Shown here piece by piece: positions 2,579 to 18,459 of a stretch of DNA of 22,099 nt. A model generated the notes under the pieces. The model was not told where the DNA came from and did not search any database. It saw nothing but the letters and a program-made list of their open reading frames with translations. The DNA is taken from positions 1 to 22,099 of the IMG/VR virus record IMGVR_UViG_3300005253_000645, one strand, 5' to 3'. Made by a program: the position numbers and the translations under genes. Each line of letters opens with the position of its first letter. Position 1 is the first letter of the stretch. Origin of the DNA: a virus.

Positions 2579-3801
2579 GCTGGATAGATAATATAAAAAC
2601 CGATTTAGTAATTGAAACCGGAGACGGTAATAAGTTCACGCCAGATTGGCTGAATGCTTCTAAAGCTGTTGAATACAATCTTGTAGAGTTTGATTTTCCA
2701 AACATTCCGGGAACACTTGTAAAACGAAGCCAGCCACGTGGAAGAAAATATAATCTTGAAATTTATTTTAAAGGAGATGACCATTTGGAACTCTCTAATG
2801 ATTTTGAAAAATCAGCAAACGATAGCAGGGCCTGGACAATATCCCATCCTTTTTATGATAGAATTATAGTACAACCGGTCTCTTTGGCTTTTGATAATAC
2901 CAGGTATAACACTACTAAGATCACGGGGGTAATCATAGAAACAATAACAGAAGATAATCCCAAGACAACAGTTGCTCCTCAGGAAAAAATTTCAGCCGAT
3001 AAAGAAGTTTTGGATGCTACTTTTGAAGATTCATTTGCCAATGATGTTGTTCCTGATACCGATGATATTAATACATTGACTGAAAATACGGCTACATTTC
3101 ATAATACGGGTTTAAATATTGCATCCGAAACAATTGATGCAGAAGATTATTTTAATCTTTTCAATGCTGCTAATGCAGCTATATTAAATGCTACGGCAGA
3201 ACCATTGGCAGCTATAAGAGCCTTACAAGCCGTTATTAATGCACCCGCTCTATTTGCACAGAGCGTAAAAAACAGGATAACTGTATTTGTAGAGCAGATA
3301 ACTAAATTGAGTTCGGGGATAAATGAAATATTAACCCCTAACAATAAAAAGATATATGAAAACAATGTAGGGGTTGGCTTATCTGCAATGGCATTGGCAT
3401 CATCTAATCCACAGCAGGATGATTATGACAGCAGATCAAAGGTGCTGGAAATAATAGATGAAATCAACAGATCTTACAATGCTTATTTGGCAGACCTGGA
3501 TACACTGCAAACCTTAACCGGAGGTGATGAAGATAGTTATATCCCTGATGCAGAAAGCCTGATAGGATTAAATAATCTTATTAATTTCACATTATCTAAT
3601 CTATTTGACATAGCATTAGAAAGTAAACAGGAAAGGTCTGTTATTTTAGAAGATGATTCAAATATTATTCTTTTAACACATCGGTTTTATGGCTTAGAAG
3701 CTGATGATAGTACTATTGATAGCTTAATGGAAATCAATAACATAGGATTGAATGAAATTTTAAATATCAGAAAAGGAAGAAAACTAATTTATTTGGTGTG
3801 A
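2575..3801 (+). CDS. DNA circulation protein-like tail protein with LysM-like C-terminus (408 aa)
   Basis: The N-terminal region (about residues 30-130) contains FPNIPGTLVKRSQPRGRKYN, a GDDH segment, and HPFYDRIIVQPVSLAF. This matches the layout of the DNA_circ_N domain of Mu gp43-like tail proteins: an arginine-rich strand, then gDDh..., then HP.yG.. followed by a beta domain. The middle is helical, with alanine-rich and acidic segments. The last 45 residues (ILLTHRFYGLEADD... INNIGLNEILNIRKGRKLIYLV) look like a LysM or tail-protein-X type fold, which often links tail tube, baseplate hub and peptidoglycan. In Mu-like phages this gene precedes the gp44-type hub, as it does here. The role is inferred from family and order. 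Confidence 0.7.
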   Translation: MSWIDNIKTDLVIETGDGNKFTPDWLNASKAVEYNLVEFDFPNIPGTLVKRSQPRGRKYNLEIYFKGDDHLELSNDFEKSANDSRAWTISHPFYDRIIVQPVSLAFDNTRYNTTKITGVIIETITEDNPKTTVAPQEKISADKEVLDATFEDSFANDVVPDTDDINTLTENTATFHNTGLNIASETIDAEDYFNLFNAANAAILNATAEPLAAIRALQAVINAPALFAQSVKNRITVFVEQITKLSSGINEILTPNNKKIYENNVGVGLSAMALASSNPQQDDYDSRSKVLEIIDEINRSYNAYLADLDTLQTLTGGDEDSYIPDAESLIGLNNLINFTLSNLFDIALESKQERSVILEDDSNIILLTHRFYGLEADDSTIDSLMEINNIGLNEILNIRKGRKLIYLV

Positions 3802-5755: not shown

Positions 5756-7328
5756 AGACATTTGGAATAACATAAAGAACAAGTTTCCCGGCACTGATTC
5801 CGGTGCCAGGGGAAAAATAGTATCAAGGCGCCCGGAAGCTAATATATCTTATAATAATATTTTTTCCGTTTCTTATAGTGGTGAGAAAAATCTCGGTGAG
5901 ATAGGTCCCATTAAGAATTACCTAATGGATCATGATGCCCTTAGATTAAGGTCATGGCAATCCTATATAGAAAGCGAAATATCTCAAATTGTTTTAAATA
6001 AATTCGCAATATGGGTAGTAGGGGCGGGATTAAAGCTCCAGGCAGAGCCGGCAAGGAAAGTTCTTGAATCGGAGGGGATAATCCTTAATGCGGAAGATTT
6101 TAACGACATAGTAGAGGCAAGGTTTAATGTGTTTGCTAATTCTAAATCAGCAGATTATTCAAACATGAAAAGCCTTAATGCTATTGGTAATACAACATTT
6201 CTCAATTCTATAATAGGCGGTGATGTTTTGATAGTTTTGAGACTTATAAAAGGGGAAGTCAAAGTACAGCTAATTGATGGAGCACACTTAGTTGCTCCCT
6301 TGGGCGATAAAGATAGTAAAGGCAAGAGAAAAGGCAAAAATAATCGTATCCGTAACGGCATAGAAATATCCTCCTCAGGTGAACACGTTGCCTATTGGGT
6401 TAAAACAAAGCATTTTGAATTTGAAAGAATAAAAGCGAGGGGTGATAAGTCGGGTTTGAAAATGGCATTTATAGTTTATGGGGGGGAATATAGATTAGAT
6501 AATGTGCGTGGAATACCAAAATTAGCCCCCATTTTAGAAACATTAAAAAAACTTGAAAGATATAAGGAGGCTACTGTTGGTAGTGCTGAGGAGAGGCAAA
6601 AAATAGTTCTGCAAATTATACATGACCAAATTTCCACAGGAGAAAATCCTTTCCAGGGACAATTAGCAAAGGCATATGATGATGATGCCGTAACAGATGA
6701 TATTCCTACCGATGATGTTGGCAATAAACTTGCCGATACTGTTGCGGCCACAACGAATAAAGCAGTATATAATATGCCTAAAGGTGCGGAATTAAAGGCA
6801 TTAGAAAGTAAAAATGAACTTTATTTTAAAGATTTTTATACAGTTAATATTAATGTCGCTTGTGCAACATTAGGGATACCACCGGAGGTTGCATTAAGCA
6901 AATACGATAGTAACTTTTCAGCCAGCCGGGCAGCTTTAAAAGATTGGGAACATACTATAAAGGTAAATCGCCGGAGATTTTCAGAACAATTTATGCAACC
7001 CATTTATGAATTTTGGCTTGAAGTTCAAATCTTACAAAACAAGGTACAGGCCCCGGGATATTTATTAGCCGATAATAACATGGTAAAAGAAGCTTATCAA
7101 ACTGCCAGGTTTACCGGTGCAACAATACCTCACATTGATCCTTTAAAAGAAGTTAATGCCGTAAGGGAAAAGTTGGGGGATCTGGCTAAAGACATTCCAT
7201 TAACAACGGTAGAAGCGGCTACAGAGGAATTAAATGGCGGGGATAGTTCTTCCAATATGGAACAATACGCTAAGGAGCTGGTAAAATCAAAAGAATTAGG
7301 TATAAAAACCAACGAACCTTCAGAGTAA
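5742..7328 (+). CDS. Phage portal protein, lambda gpB-like (528 aa)
   Basis: The dodecameric portal is the DNA entry and exit channel of the capsid. The early region DALRLRSWQSYIESEISQIVLNKFAIWVVGAGLKLQ is typical of lambda-family portals: two helices followed by 'vvG.Gl.l'. IGGDVLIVLRL and VQLIDGAHL follow, matching the 'GD.l......v.li.g..l..p' part of the wing. The C-terminal half has the stem and crown region with MPKGAELKALESKNELYFKDF and LGIPPEVALSKYDSNFSASRAAL, a conserved portal signature (lgiP.e.l..dys..nySsaR). I chose the ATG at 5742 because the upstream TTG/ATG choices would overlap the W-like gene further. Length is normal for the family. The 3' end converges on the antisense gene at 7320-7493. 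Confidence 0.9.
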   Translation: MGGIKDIWNNIKNKFPGTDSGARGKIVSRRPEANISYNNIFSVSYSGEKNLGEIGPIKNYLMDHDALRLRSWQSYIESEISQIVLNKFAIWVVGAGLKLQAEPARKVLESEGIILNAEDFNDIVEARFNVFANSKSADYSNMKSLNAIGNTTFLNSIIGGDVLIVLRLIKGEVKVQLIDGAHLVAPLGDKDSKGKRKGKNNRIRNGIEISSSGEHVAYWVKTKHFEFERIKARGDKSGLKMAFIVYGGEYRLDNVRGIPKLAPILETLKKLERYKEATVGSAEERQKIVLQIIHDQISTGENPFQGQLAKAYDDDAVTDDIPTDDVGNKLADTVAATTNKAVYNMPKGAELKALESKNELYFKDFYTVNINVACATLGIPPEVALSKYDSNFSASRAALKDWEHTIKVNRRRFSEQFMQPIYEFWLEVQILQNKVQAPGYLLADNNMVKEAYQTARFTGATIPHIDPLKEVNAVREKLGDLAKDIPLTTVEAATEELNGGDSSSNMEQYAKELVKSKELGIKTNEPSE

Positions 7329-7493
7329 ATCTCTTTCTATTTTTAAATTTTCCGGTTGAGATTCGTAAAATTTTCTCAATGCTCCTTTCACTAATGCTGA
7401 AAGCGTTCTCCCTTTGTTTTTCGCTATTGTTTTTAATTGATTCTTTAATTTTCTTGGTATTCCTGTGACTTTGATAAATGTTATATCCGACAT
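7320..7493 (-). CDS. Ribbon-helix-helix DNA-binding protein, antisense (57 aa)
   Basis: This is the only convincing minus-strand gene. From the Met at 7493 the protein reads MSDITFIKVTGIPRKLKNQL, then KTIAKNKGRTLSALVKGALRKFYES. That is a short strand (TFIKVTGIP), a helix, a turn (KNKGRTL) and a second helix (SALVKGALRKFYE), the Arc/MetJ-type ribbon-helix-helix layout used by small dimeric repressors and antitoxins. An upstream in-frame ATG at 7511 would add six residues, but the MSDITF start fits the fold better. The gene lies between the portal and protease genes, overlaps the portal end by 9 nt tail to tail, and diverges from the protease start. It may be a lysogenic-conversion gene or a regulator of late or host genes. 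Its target is unknown. Confidence 0.65.
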   Translation of the reverse strand: MSDITFIKVTGIPRKLKNQLKTIAKNKGRTLSALVKGALRKFYESQPENLKIERDLL

Positions 7494-7497
7494 TTCA

Positions 7498-7505
7498 CAA
7501 AGATA
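7498..7505 (-). promoter_or_regulatory. Possible Bacteroidota -7 box for the antisense regulator
   Basis: Read on the minus strand, this is TATCTTTG, a full match to the Bacteroidota -7 form TAnnTTTG. A TTTTG lies about 16 nt upstream, a little shorter than the usual spacing. It ends only 4 nt before the ATG at 7493, so transcription from it would give a leaderless or nearly leaderless mRNA. The match is short and could be chance. Confidence 0.3.
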
Positions 7506-7564
7506 ATACATTTTTTGTAACCAAAATTTTTTTATTTAAAATAACATGCATTTCTTTGTTGTCA

Positions 7565-16176: not shown

Positions 16177-16224
16177 ATGGCAAAGAAAACGTGGCTTTGT
16201 GATGCGGGACATTTAAAGATATGA
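16177..16224 (+). pseudogene. Truncated 5' end of a second amidase gene (15 codons)
   Basis: The ATG at 16177 starts MAKKTWLCDAGHLKI and then a stop. The intact amidase at 16958 starts MAKHTFLLDCGHGSI. The two match at M1, A2, K3, T5, L7, D9, G11, H12 and I15, including the first zinc-binding His of the DxGH motif, but differ at many third codon positions. This is therefore a diverged homologue and not a fresh copy. The remnant stops right at the start of the homing endonuclease gene (ATGA overlap at 16221), which shows that the endonuclease was inserted into, or carried in with, an amidase start region. Confidence 0.65.
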
Positions 16225-16955
16225 GAAGAAATCAAAAAATAGTATATTCTGCAATGAATAAGGTTAATAACAAATCTTATATAGGATATTGTATTGATTT
16301 TAAAGAAAGAAAAACAAGGCATTTTTTATGTGCAAAAAAGGGAATTGTAACACGCTTTTATAATGCTATAAGAAAATACGGGGAAGAAAACTTTGAATGG
16401 ATTATATTATTTGATAATTTAGAAAATATTGAAGAGTGCAAAAAAATTGAAAAGTTAATGATAGTATTATTTGATACTTATAATAATGGATATAATTCTA
16501 CATTGGGCGGAGATGGTGGATTTACAGGGCATAATTCAGGGGAATTTAAAAAAGGTCAGCAATCACGGAATAAAGGGAAAAAAATGTCAGAAGAACAAAG
16601 GCAAAAATTAAGCAATGCACATAAAGGTATAAAGTTGTCTAAAAGTCATGCCGAAAGCATAAGCAAGGCAAATAAAGGACGTATAGTTACTAAAGAGACG
16701 AGAGAAAAAATCCGCAAATCACTTATTGGAAAAAAGCGTACACCTGAAGCTACAAAAAGAATAAGGGAAGCTACGAGAAAAGCAAACAATAAACCAATTA
16801 GGCAATTCAATATTGATAAAATAGCAATTATGAATTATAGTAGTCTTACAGAAGCAAGTGAAATTACAGGAATTAGTCGTTCAAATATCAGTATGTCTGC
16901 AAGAATAGGAAGAAAAAGTGTGGGGAATTTTTTATGGGAATATATTAAACAATAA
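16221..16955 (+). CDS. GIY-YIG homing endonuclease with NUMOD3 and NUMOD1 motifs (244 aa)
   Basis: The N-terminus carries the GIY-YIG nuclease core: KIVYSAMNKVNNKSYIGYCI (the 'vYs..nkvNgKsYIGyt' form, residues about 6-25), then IRKYGEENFEW with the expected Glu region. It is followed by repeated NUMOD3-type DNA-binding motifs (GEFKKGQQSRNKGKKMSEEQ, then NAHKGIKLSKSHAESISKAN, then IRKSLIGKKRTPEATKRIRE). The end is a NUMOD1-type segment (IRQFNIDKIAIMNYSSLTEA, then EITGISRSNISMSARI... FLWEYIKQ). Such proteins cut DNA of phages lacking the gene and spread with it. It uses an ATG overlapping the stop of the amidase remnant and ends 2 nt before the intact amidase. Expression is probably coupled to that lysis operon. 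Confidence 0.88.
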   Translation: MRRNQKIVYSAMNKVNNKSYIGYCIDFKERKTRHFLCAKKGIVTRFYNAIRKYGEENFEWIILFDNLENIEECKKIEKLMIVLFDTYNNGYNSTLGGDGGFTGHNSGEFKKGQQSRNKGKKMSEEQRQKLSNAHKGIKLSKSHAESISKANKGRIVTKETREKIRKSLIGKKRTPEATKRIREATRKANNKPIRQFNIDKIAIMNYSSLTEASEITGISRSNISMSARIGRKSVGNFLWEYIKQ

Positions 16956-17639: not shown

Positions 17640-17744
17640 ATGAGTTTTGGTGGAGCATTTAAAATTTCAATAAGAATAATTATTACCTTTGTAATATCGT
17701 TTTCAATGGCAATGTATTTATTATATTTGGTCTTTATTTTTTAA
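17640..17744 (+). CDS. Tiny membrane protein after the amidase (34 aa)
   Basis: The ATG at 17640 gives MSFGGAFKISIRIIITFVIS then FSMAMYLLYLVFIF, a basic start and one long hydrophobic segment. A 14-codon ORF with a good GGAAGGG site begins just upstream at 17618 and ends inside this one at 17662, so it may feed ribosomes to it. Position after the endolysin fits a lysis accessory (holin, antiholin or spanin-like) peptide. The family is not recognised. Confidence 0.4.
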   Translation: MSFGGAFKISIRIIITFVISFSMAMYLLYLVFIF

Positions 17745-17780
17745 TCAATGAGCTTTTTATTAATCAAAACTATAATATCT

Positions 17781-18023
17781 ATGACAAAAGCAGGAAAATT
17801 TATCAGAAGGTTGGGAATGGGCATCAAAGATGTCCTGTTACCCAATTTAAGGGACAACTTGGCTGCTCCGGAGAGTGGATGGACTAAAACAGAAGGTGGG
17901 AAGGGAAAGTTTGACTACTGGCGTTTAGGGACCAGCATAGCCTTTATATTGCTTATAGTGGGCTTCCTGTTTGGGAAGGTAACTATGGAGCAGATACAGA
18001 GCTTTTTGGAGTTTCTGAAGTAG
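17781..18023 (+). CDS. Holin-like membrane protein (80 aa)
   Basis: I prefer the ATG at 17781 (MTKAGKFIRRLGMGIKDVLL...) to the one at 17748, because the upstream 11 residues would add a separate hydrophobic stretch of no clear use. The protein has an amphipathic basic N-terminus, a polar middle and one membrane segment (about 58-73, LGTSIAFILLIVGFLFG) followed by a short helix VTMEQIQSFLEFLK. It directly follows the endolysin and tiny membrane ORFs, so it is the best holin candidate here. A single clear membrane segment is fewer than most holins have, and a phage-specific membrane protein of another role is possible. Confidence 0.5.
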   Translation: MTKAGKFIRRLGMGIKDVLLPNLRDNLAAPESGWTKTEGGKGKFDYWRLGTSIAFILLIVGFLFGKVTMEQIQSFLEFLK

Positions 18024-18031
18024 TATCACTG

Positions 18032-18252
18032 AACTCCGCCAGGAATGGTCGGGGAGTTAGCCATTCCAGATGTGCACTCGGGGATGCGGAGACAAGCGGT
18101 TTCGTAGATAGCTAATAATTATCTTTTTTTACCGCTTCCAGTCTTGACGGGGCAGGTTTTACCTGCCCTGATAATATAGCCCAGCAGGTGAAGTGAGTGG
18201 TCTTTTTACCTTCCCCACAAGGTATTTTCAGCCATTCATTTCCGGCGGGGTT
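18032..18252 (+). ncRNA. Candidate structured non-coding RNA (about 220 nt)
   Basis: The stretch after the holin-like stop has no plausible gene and is visibly richer in G and C than its surroundings. Its ends can pair over 9 bp with one U-G (18032-18040 with 18244-18252). Inside lie nested stems. GGAATGG/CCATTCC pairs 18042-18048 with 18061-18067. AAGCGGT/ACCGCTT pairs 18094-18100 with 18131-18137 and holds an inner AGATA/TATCT. A 10-bp stem with one G-U pairs 18148-18157 with 18161-18170. TACCTT/AAGGTA pairs 18207-18212 with 18219-18224. They are compatible with one multibranch fold closed by the end stem. The family is unknown. It may be a small RNA, an untranslated control element for the downstream replication operon, or a packaging or replication signal. 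Confidence 0.5.
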
Positions 18253-18254
18253 AA

Positions 18255-18291
18255 TTTTTGAACTATTAAGTTTTTCTTAATAGTTCAAAAA
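18255..18291 (+). repeat. Perfect 16-bp AT-rich hairpin without U tract
   Basis: TTTTTGAACTATTAAG (18255-18270) pairs perfectly with 18276-18291 around a TTTTT loop. The stem is followed by A residues and CTTCC on the + strand and by AACCCC on the - strand, so neither strand has a terminator U tract. It lies just past the candidate RNA and before the HNH gene. It may mark the RNA end, bind a protein, or serve as an origin or control hairpin. Confidence 0.7.
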
Positions 18292-18350
18292 AACTTCCTG
18301 AAAAATTAGGTTATTAAGAATATAATTTTTATCTTTATGGTTATCAAAAT

Positions 18351-18422
18351 GCCTCAGTCAAGTGGAATTAAATAAACTTATACCCGCATCTTTACTGTTT
18401 GAGGTTTCTCTTTGACTGGGGC
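18351..18422 (+). repeat. 11-bp inverted repeat in front of the HNH gene
   Basis: GCCTCAGTCAA (18351-18361) can pair with TTGACTGGGGC (18412-18422) with one T-G pair and a 50-nt loop. The right arm ends 37 nt before the HNH start codon at 18460. It could fold in the mRNA leader or be an operator. There is no direct evidence of function. Confidence 0.4.
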
Positions 18423-18459
18423 TACCAACATTAATGGTATTGGTGTGGGTTTTTTATTT

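Follow-up and report, generated by a model that had tools for sequence, protein, structure and literature searches.

The closest described counterparts of the element reported here are the processing hairpins and 3′ retroregulators that phages offer to RNase III, such as the T7 R1.1-type sites and lambda sib. These share with our element a long stem, an asymmetric internal loop and a position on a phage transcript downstream of a gene that may be under its control; the differences are that our sequence is nearly invariant, and that it comes from other phages with, presumably, a Bacteroidota host. To our knowledge, few cis-acting RNA elements have been described from Bacteroidota phages, and lysis timing in these phages has hardly been studied. 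Other systems must also be weighed at this locus, namely phage tRNA genes, the HEARO/OMEGA RNAs that accompany IscB, and the leaders of attenuators and riboswitches.

Here we describe hairpin C, a real, new and narrow structured-RNA element of a known general kind. It is carried by four distinct tailed phages whose promoters fit Bacteroidota, one of which provided the window, that is, the whole stretch of 22,099 nucleotides that was analysed. The features of the window to which we refer are the following:

17748-18023, + strand: small protein with a single transmembrane segment, product of the gene that ends the lysis cassette, holin-like from its place there, and always preceding hairpin C.
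18024-18178, + strand: lineage-specific 3′-UTR slot, structured in this phage (fold z -2.9) and not conserved.
18089-18145, + strand: hairpin A of the slot, with 12 bp and a bulge, a 5/6-nt internal loop and 6 bp.
18148-18170, + strand: hairpin B of the slot, with a 10-bp GC-rich stem and a UUU loop.
18179-18251, + strand: hairpin C, the conserved element, as seen in alignment A2, pair counts, folds and matches to covariance model R1.
18255-18291, no strand assigned: AT-rich palindrome, perfect over 16 bp, directly after hairpin C and found in the window only.
18330-18337, + strand: -7 box TATCTTTA (consensus TAnnTTTG) of the Bacteroidota-type promoter of the next operon.
18342-18459, + strand: structured leader RNA of the replication operon, in which a stem, P1, crosses a terminator-like stem with a U-run.

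Three distinct relatives in IMG/VR carry hairpin C. The first, L003, was reached via a relative of the DnaD-like loader (L003 and L006 are two contigs with the same match and were counted once), and the other two, L026 and L029, by exact sequence patterns. Exact patterns and patterns for the 3′ arm returned known loci only, the hits of loose DNA patterns were unrelated sequences that lacked the fold, and the loci of capsid-protein relatives held no further copies. Covariance model R1 scores 91-105 bits in all four phages, with one copy per record, and no other convincing match was obtained in 272 kb of loci.

The earlier note on this DNA had singled out positions 18032-18252 as a gene-free, GC-richer and well-folding stretch, and in this it was right. 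The stretch follows the stop codon of the ORF at 17748-18023 and lies ahead of the next operon, with a GC content of 0.48-0.49 vs 0.21-0.35 in nearby sequence; folded in isolation it reaches -88 kcal/mol (z -5.1), which none of 200 shuffles equalled. Across 200 tiled 220-nt windows on both strands, the lowest z (-5.1) belonged to the tile at 18041 on the + strand, and the stretch is therefore unusual for this genome. The exact stretch scored z -4.1 (+) and -5.2 (-) in the same scan, with 20 shuffles each, and its absolute fold energy is lower on the + strand (-87.4 vs -70.2). Rfam offered no match for hairpin C, the slot or the leader at either gathering or permissive thresholds, with no match at the gathering threshold in the whole window and none at E<=10 in 17900-18420. 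The claim that the stretch matches neither tRNA nor tmRNA likewise holds, as no such cloverleaf was found in the window by ARAGORN or by Rfam models. BLAST of the region against 50,697 phage records gave unrelated AT-rich matches only, and the titles and abstracts that literature searches listed include no description of the hairpin C element.

The same note had read the stretch as a single RNA of 221 nt, with at least four internal stems inside a 9-bp closing stem, in which ACCTGC at 18161 could pair instead with GCAGGT at 18184 as a two-state switch. The closing stem is indeed part of the minimum free energy structure of the isolated 221 nt, and predictions for the window include three further stable hairpins. 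With flanks included (18024-18300), however, the closing stem becomes a minority alternative with a pairing probability of ~0.12-0.14, as against 0.74-0.86 for local closure of hairpin C, and the switch pairing costs ~5 kcal/mol and has a probability of ~0. The relatives point the same way: the outer stem borrows GGCGGGGTT, the counterpart of which in L003, L026 and L029 closes hairpin C against CCCCGC; ACCTGC was not found in their 5′ segments; and their 5′ part is replaced by unrelated sequence or a tRNA. A single switching RNA of 221 nt is thus very unlikely. A structured RNA does lie between the lysis and replication genes in four distinct phages, but the four-hairpin star is not one conserved RNA, as only its last hairpin is conserved; the note had the right place, with the wrong boundaries and the wrong pairing partners.

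The ~155 nt upstream of hairpin C, which fold in the window as further hairpins, are best described as a variable slot. BLAST found no match to 18024-18178 in the relatives. Hairpin A has the same architecture as hairpin C with no similarity in sequence, and a duplication linking the two is unsupported, as 331 of 2000 shuffles were as alike as the real pair. In L003 the slot holds a tRNA gene with anticodon GCT (2885-2961; ARAGORN and Rfam), ending a few bases from hairpin C. Here lies the likeness to phage tRNA genes; the difference is that neither ARAGORN nor the Rfam tRNA model finds a tRNA in the window slot, and that hairpin C itself is no tRNA. The L003 gene is called as Ser, and by eye its variable loop is just 5 nt; bacterial tRNA-Ser normally has a long variable arm. 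The slots of L026 and L029 hold other sequences, faintly tRNA-like by eye, in which neither the intron modes of ARAGORN nor Rfam found a tRNA; calls made by ARAGORN at a low threshold (-ps50) were dubious and were not accepted. The 5′ segment of L029 resembles, by eye, the D-arm of a Leu tRNA. A further small fold, GGGCG..CTTAACCAAATCCTAAC...TTCAAGTAT.TGATCATCCCGCCC, is common to L003 (~3049-3125) and L026 (~2590-2515, - strand), downstream of hairpin C in both and absent from the window.

Hairpin C makes up the last 73 bases of the stretch and is its sole part common to the related phages. A GCCC.GC closing stem is followed by a 12-bp helix (GAAGUGAGUGGU/GCCAUUCAUUUC), above which lie an internal loop (CUUUU/AUUUUC), an upper stem of 6-8 bp and a variable apical loop. 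The sequences GCAGGTGAAGTGAGTGGTCTTTTTAC, in the 5′ arm, and GTATTTTCAG.CAT..TTCATTTCC, in the 3′ arm, hardly vary, and both sides of the internal loop are close to invariant in primary sequence. Identity among the phages is 85-97% in hairpin C vs 64-85% in the DNA of the adjacent holin-like gene, with no alignment at all for the stretch between the two. In each of the four phages the hairpin is closed by its own stem and starts 92-224 nt past the stop codon of the last lysis-cassette gene, with the replication genes following or facing it. An upper-stem pair reads C-G, U-G or U-A across the phages with pairing kept, a ~30-nt insertion in L029 sits in the apical loop and leaves the stem intact, and 97% of the cells in the alignment are paired vs 41-55% with slid partners.

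The checks named in the earlier note, an Rfam/Infernal search and covariation, were both run; the former matched no family, and in the latter, among only four distinct sequences, no pair of hairpin C was double-changed relative to the commonest pair and pair shuffles were not significant. Covariation alone is therefore no proof of hairpin C, and the argument for an RNA draws on where hairpin C lies, how well it is conserved and how its two strands differ in folding. In each of the four homologues the + strand fold is more stable than that of the - strand by 6.6-19.4 kcal/mol, owing to several invariant G-U pairs, which agree with an RNA transcribed in the direction of the genes. In its position, its fold and its pair-keeping substitutions, hairpin C qualifies as a generic conserved structured RNA.

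Could the conserved 73 bp be a DNA site, serving recombination or module exchange, packaging or an origin, with the hairpin incidental? It occurs once per genome, on a boundary between modules at which the phages swap their endolysins, the contents of the slot and the operons downstream. However, a DNA cruciform would have mismatches in place of the invariant G-U pairs, the - strand folds worse by the amount just given, and the upper stem varies yet keeps pairing; we consider a DNA site improbable. Coding is less credible still: a short - strand ORF (MAENT...) could account for the conservation, as ATG GCT GAA AAT ACY is common to the - strands of the window, L026 and L029, but the ORFs of the window and L029 stop after ~9-13 codons, that of L026 runs on without a stop, and the spacing of the conserved arms varies by non-multiples of three. 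Because indels break the frame and the candidate ORFs stop at different points, we give this explanation almost no weight.

Hairpin C lies downstream of lysis genes. The holin-like protein shares 48-56% amino acid identity with its counterparts in L003, L026 and L029, belongs to no Pfam or PHROG family, and has no match in the 50,697 phage records. Although the genes at the endolysin position differ (Amidase_3 in the window, M15-like in L026, DUF5675 in L029; the M15 match is weak, with a Pfam E of 0.0066, and PHROG assigns endolysin at 1e-28), the small membrane protein and hairpin C stay together. Just upstream of the holin-like gene, positions 17643-17744 encode a very small membrane peptide (..ITFVISFS..), similar to one at ~6875-6933 in L029, which may be part of the lysis cassette. 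Elsewhere in the window, a GIY-YIG homing endonuclease with NUMOD domains lies between the tail fibre and endolysin genes (16221-16955), and a 63-aa ORF that by eye resembles a ribbon-helix-helix DNA-binding protein (7320-7511, - strand) is flanked by portal-like and protease-like genes.

In the window and L003 the downstream operon is co-directional, and in L026 and L029 it is convergent. From these orientations, hairpin C belongs to the late operon's 3′ UTR in all four phages, and the convergent arrangements place it at the 3′ end of the late transcript. In the window, L003 and L029, the interval from the membrane-protein gene to hairpin C contains no TAnnTTTG box, the -7 consensus of Bacteroidota promoters (PMC9723704), and read-through from the late operon is therefore likely.

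A strong, GC-closed hairpin at an operon's 3′ end, facing a convergent operon in L026 and L029, might suggest a transcription terminator of the late operon. However, its stem has no direct U-run in any of the four homologues (GGGGTTAATTTTTG, GGGGACTTAAAT, GGGGTTCTAAAT, GGGGTGAATTTT), a terminator scan did not list it, and its sequence is conserved far beyond the needs of termination; we find this role improbable too. The palindrome that follows in the window carries its T-tract 5′ and its A-tract 3′, and so is not a canonical terminator either.

Perhaps, then, hairpin C exists as a separate small RNA, released from the late transcript by processing or made from an unrecognised phage promoter, and acts in trans by binding a host or phage protein or mRNA and travels as cargo of the lysis module. 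Its near-invariant sequence, internal loop included, exceeds the conservation of the neighbouring gene and forms an island between variable stretches, as such an RNA might; on the other hand, no recognisable promoter precedes it in the window, L003 or L029, it is always tied to the same gene, and no target was found. We regard a trans-acting role as possible, if rather doubtful.

We favour, tentatively and at somewhat less than an even chance, a cis-acting role, in which the late lysis mRNA would be ended, processed or protected by hairpin C as a stem-loop of its 3′ UTR. The hairpin would work as RNA where the late transcript ends; there a protein, either a processing enzyme of the RNase III type or one that binds RNA, would recognise the long interrupted helix and cut or cap the lysis message, setting the 3′ end and the stability of the holin mRNA. 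Processing at this point might also free a small RNA or tRNA in the slot. The RNase III-type role is proposed by analogy with the phage hairpins described above, and the near-invariance of the helix, which exceeds what a processing site defined by structure alone would require, counts against the cis proposal.

A structured RNA near an HNH gene recalls HEARO/OMEGA RNA with IscB, a likeness that the earlier note had drawn whilst doubting that the HNH protein was an IscB. That doubt was justified: the protein is 144 aa, HNH-only and without RuvC. The Rfam model does not match the region, no IscB with RuvC and HNH lies adjacent, and the HNH gene is part of the next operon, follows a promoter box of its own and has no match in L003; the -7 box at 18330-18337 separates hairpin C from the HNH/replication transcript. 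We reject HEARO because of the missing Rfam match and IscB, the placement of HNH in another transcription unit and its absence from L003.

Directly after this promoter lies a second structured RNA, the leader of the replication operon, which is a better switch candidate than the ACCTGC/GCAGGT pairing. It is conserved in all four phages (window 18342-18459; L003 3205-3340, + strand; L029 8731-8605, - strand; L026 676-543, - strand) although the first gene differs. Its stem P1 (18351-18360/18413-18422) has 10 bp fully paired in each phage from different sequences, with arms GCCTCAGTCA/TGACTGGGGC, GCGGGAAGCA/TGCTTCCCGC, ATTCCAGCAA/TTGCTGGGAT and CAGCCAGCAA/TTGCTGGCTG; eight of its ten pairs show double (compensatory) changes, and arms swapped between phages form only 3-8 pairs. 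A terminator-like stem (18382-18389/18443-18450, ACCCGC.../...GTGGGT) has double changes in 4 of 8 pairs, and after it comes a U-run, just upstream of the first ATG. Because P1 and this stem cross, they either make up a pseudoknot or exclude each other. Shuffles of any one sequence yield a crossing stem of 10 bp in 6-15% of cases, so that the strength of P1 lies in its same placement in all four phages. A descriptor of the leader, run over ~500 kb of loci, recovered the leaders of the window and L029 plus one unrelated match; those of L003 and L026 were recognised by alignment and a sequence fingerprint.

The leader resembles attenuators and riboswitch leaders in its place right after a promoter, in having a terminator-like hairpin with a U-run ahead of the first start codon, and in a second stem that overlaps this hairpin. 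It differs from them in having no Rfam match, and from a standard antiterminator in that the 3′ arm of P1 lies in the terminator loop, which points to a pseudoknot or a kinetic competitor. We posit it as a candidate attenuator or pseudoknot switch of the replication operon.

Taken to its full extent, this would amount to two undescribed phage RNA families: hairpin C, tied to the lysis module, would control lysis timing through the holin mRNA and its 3′ end, and the leader, as a pseudoknotted attenuator, would gate the replication operon. We think this unlikely as a whole, but if true, the late and replication programmes would meet at a control point made of these two RNAs. The neighbouring leader, with its clear compensatory changes, offers a candidate attenuator or pseudoknot switch for the replication operon. 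Hairpin C, near-invariant and kept with one small membrane protein through swaps of the endolysin, provides a testable handle on lysis timing in these phages.
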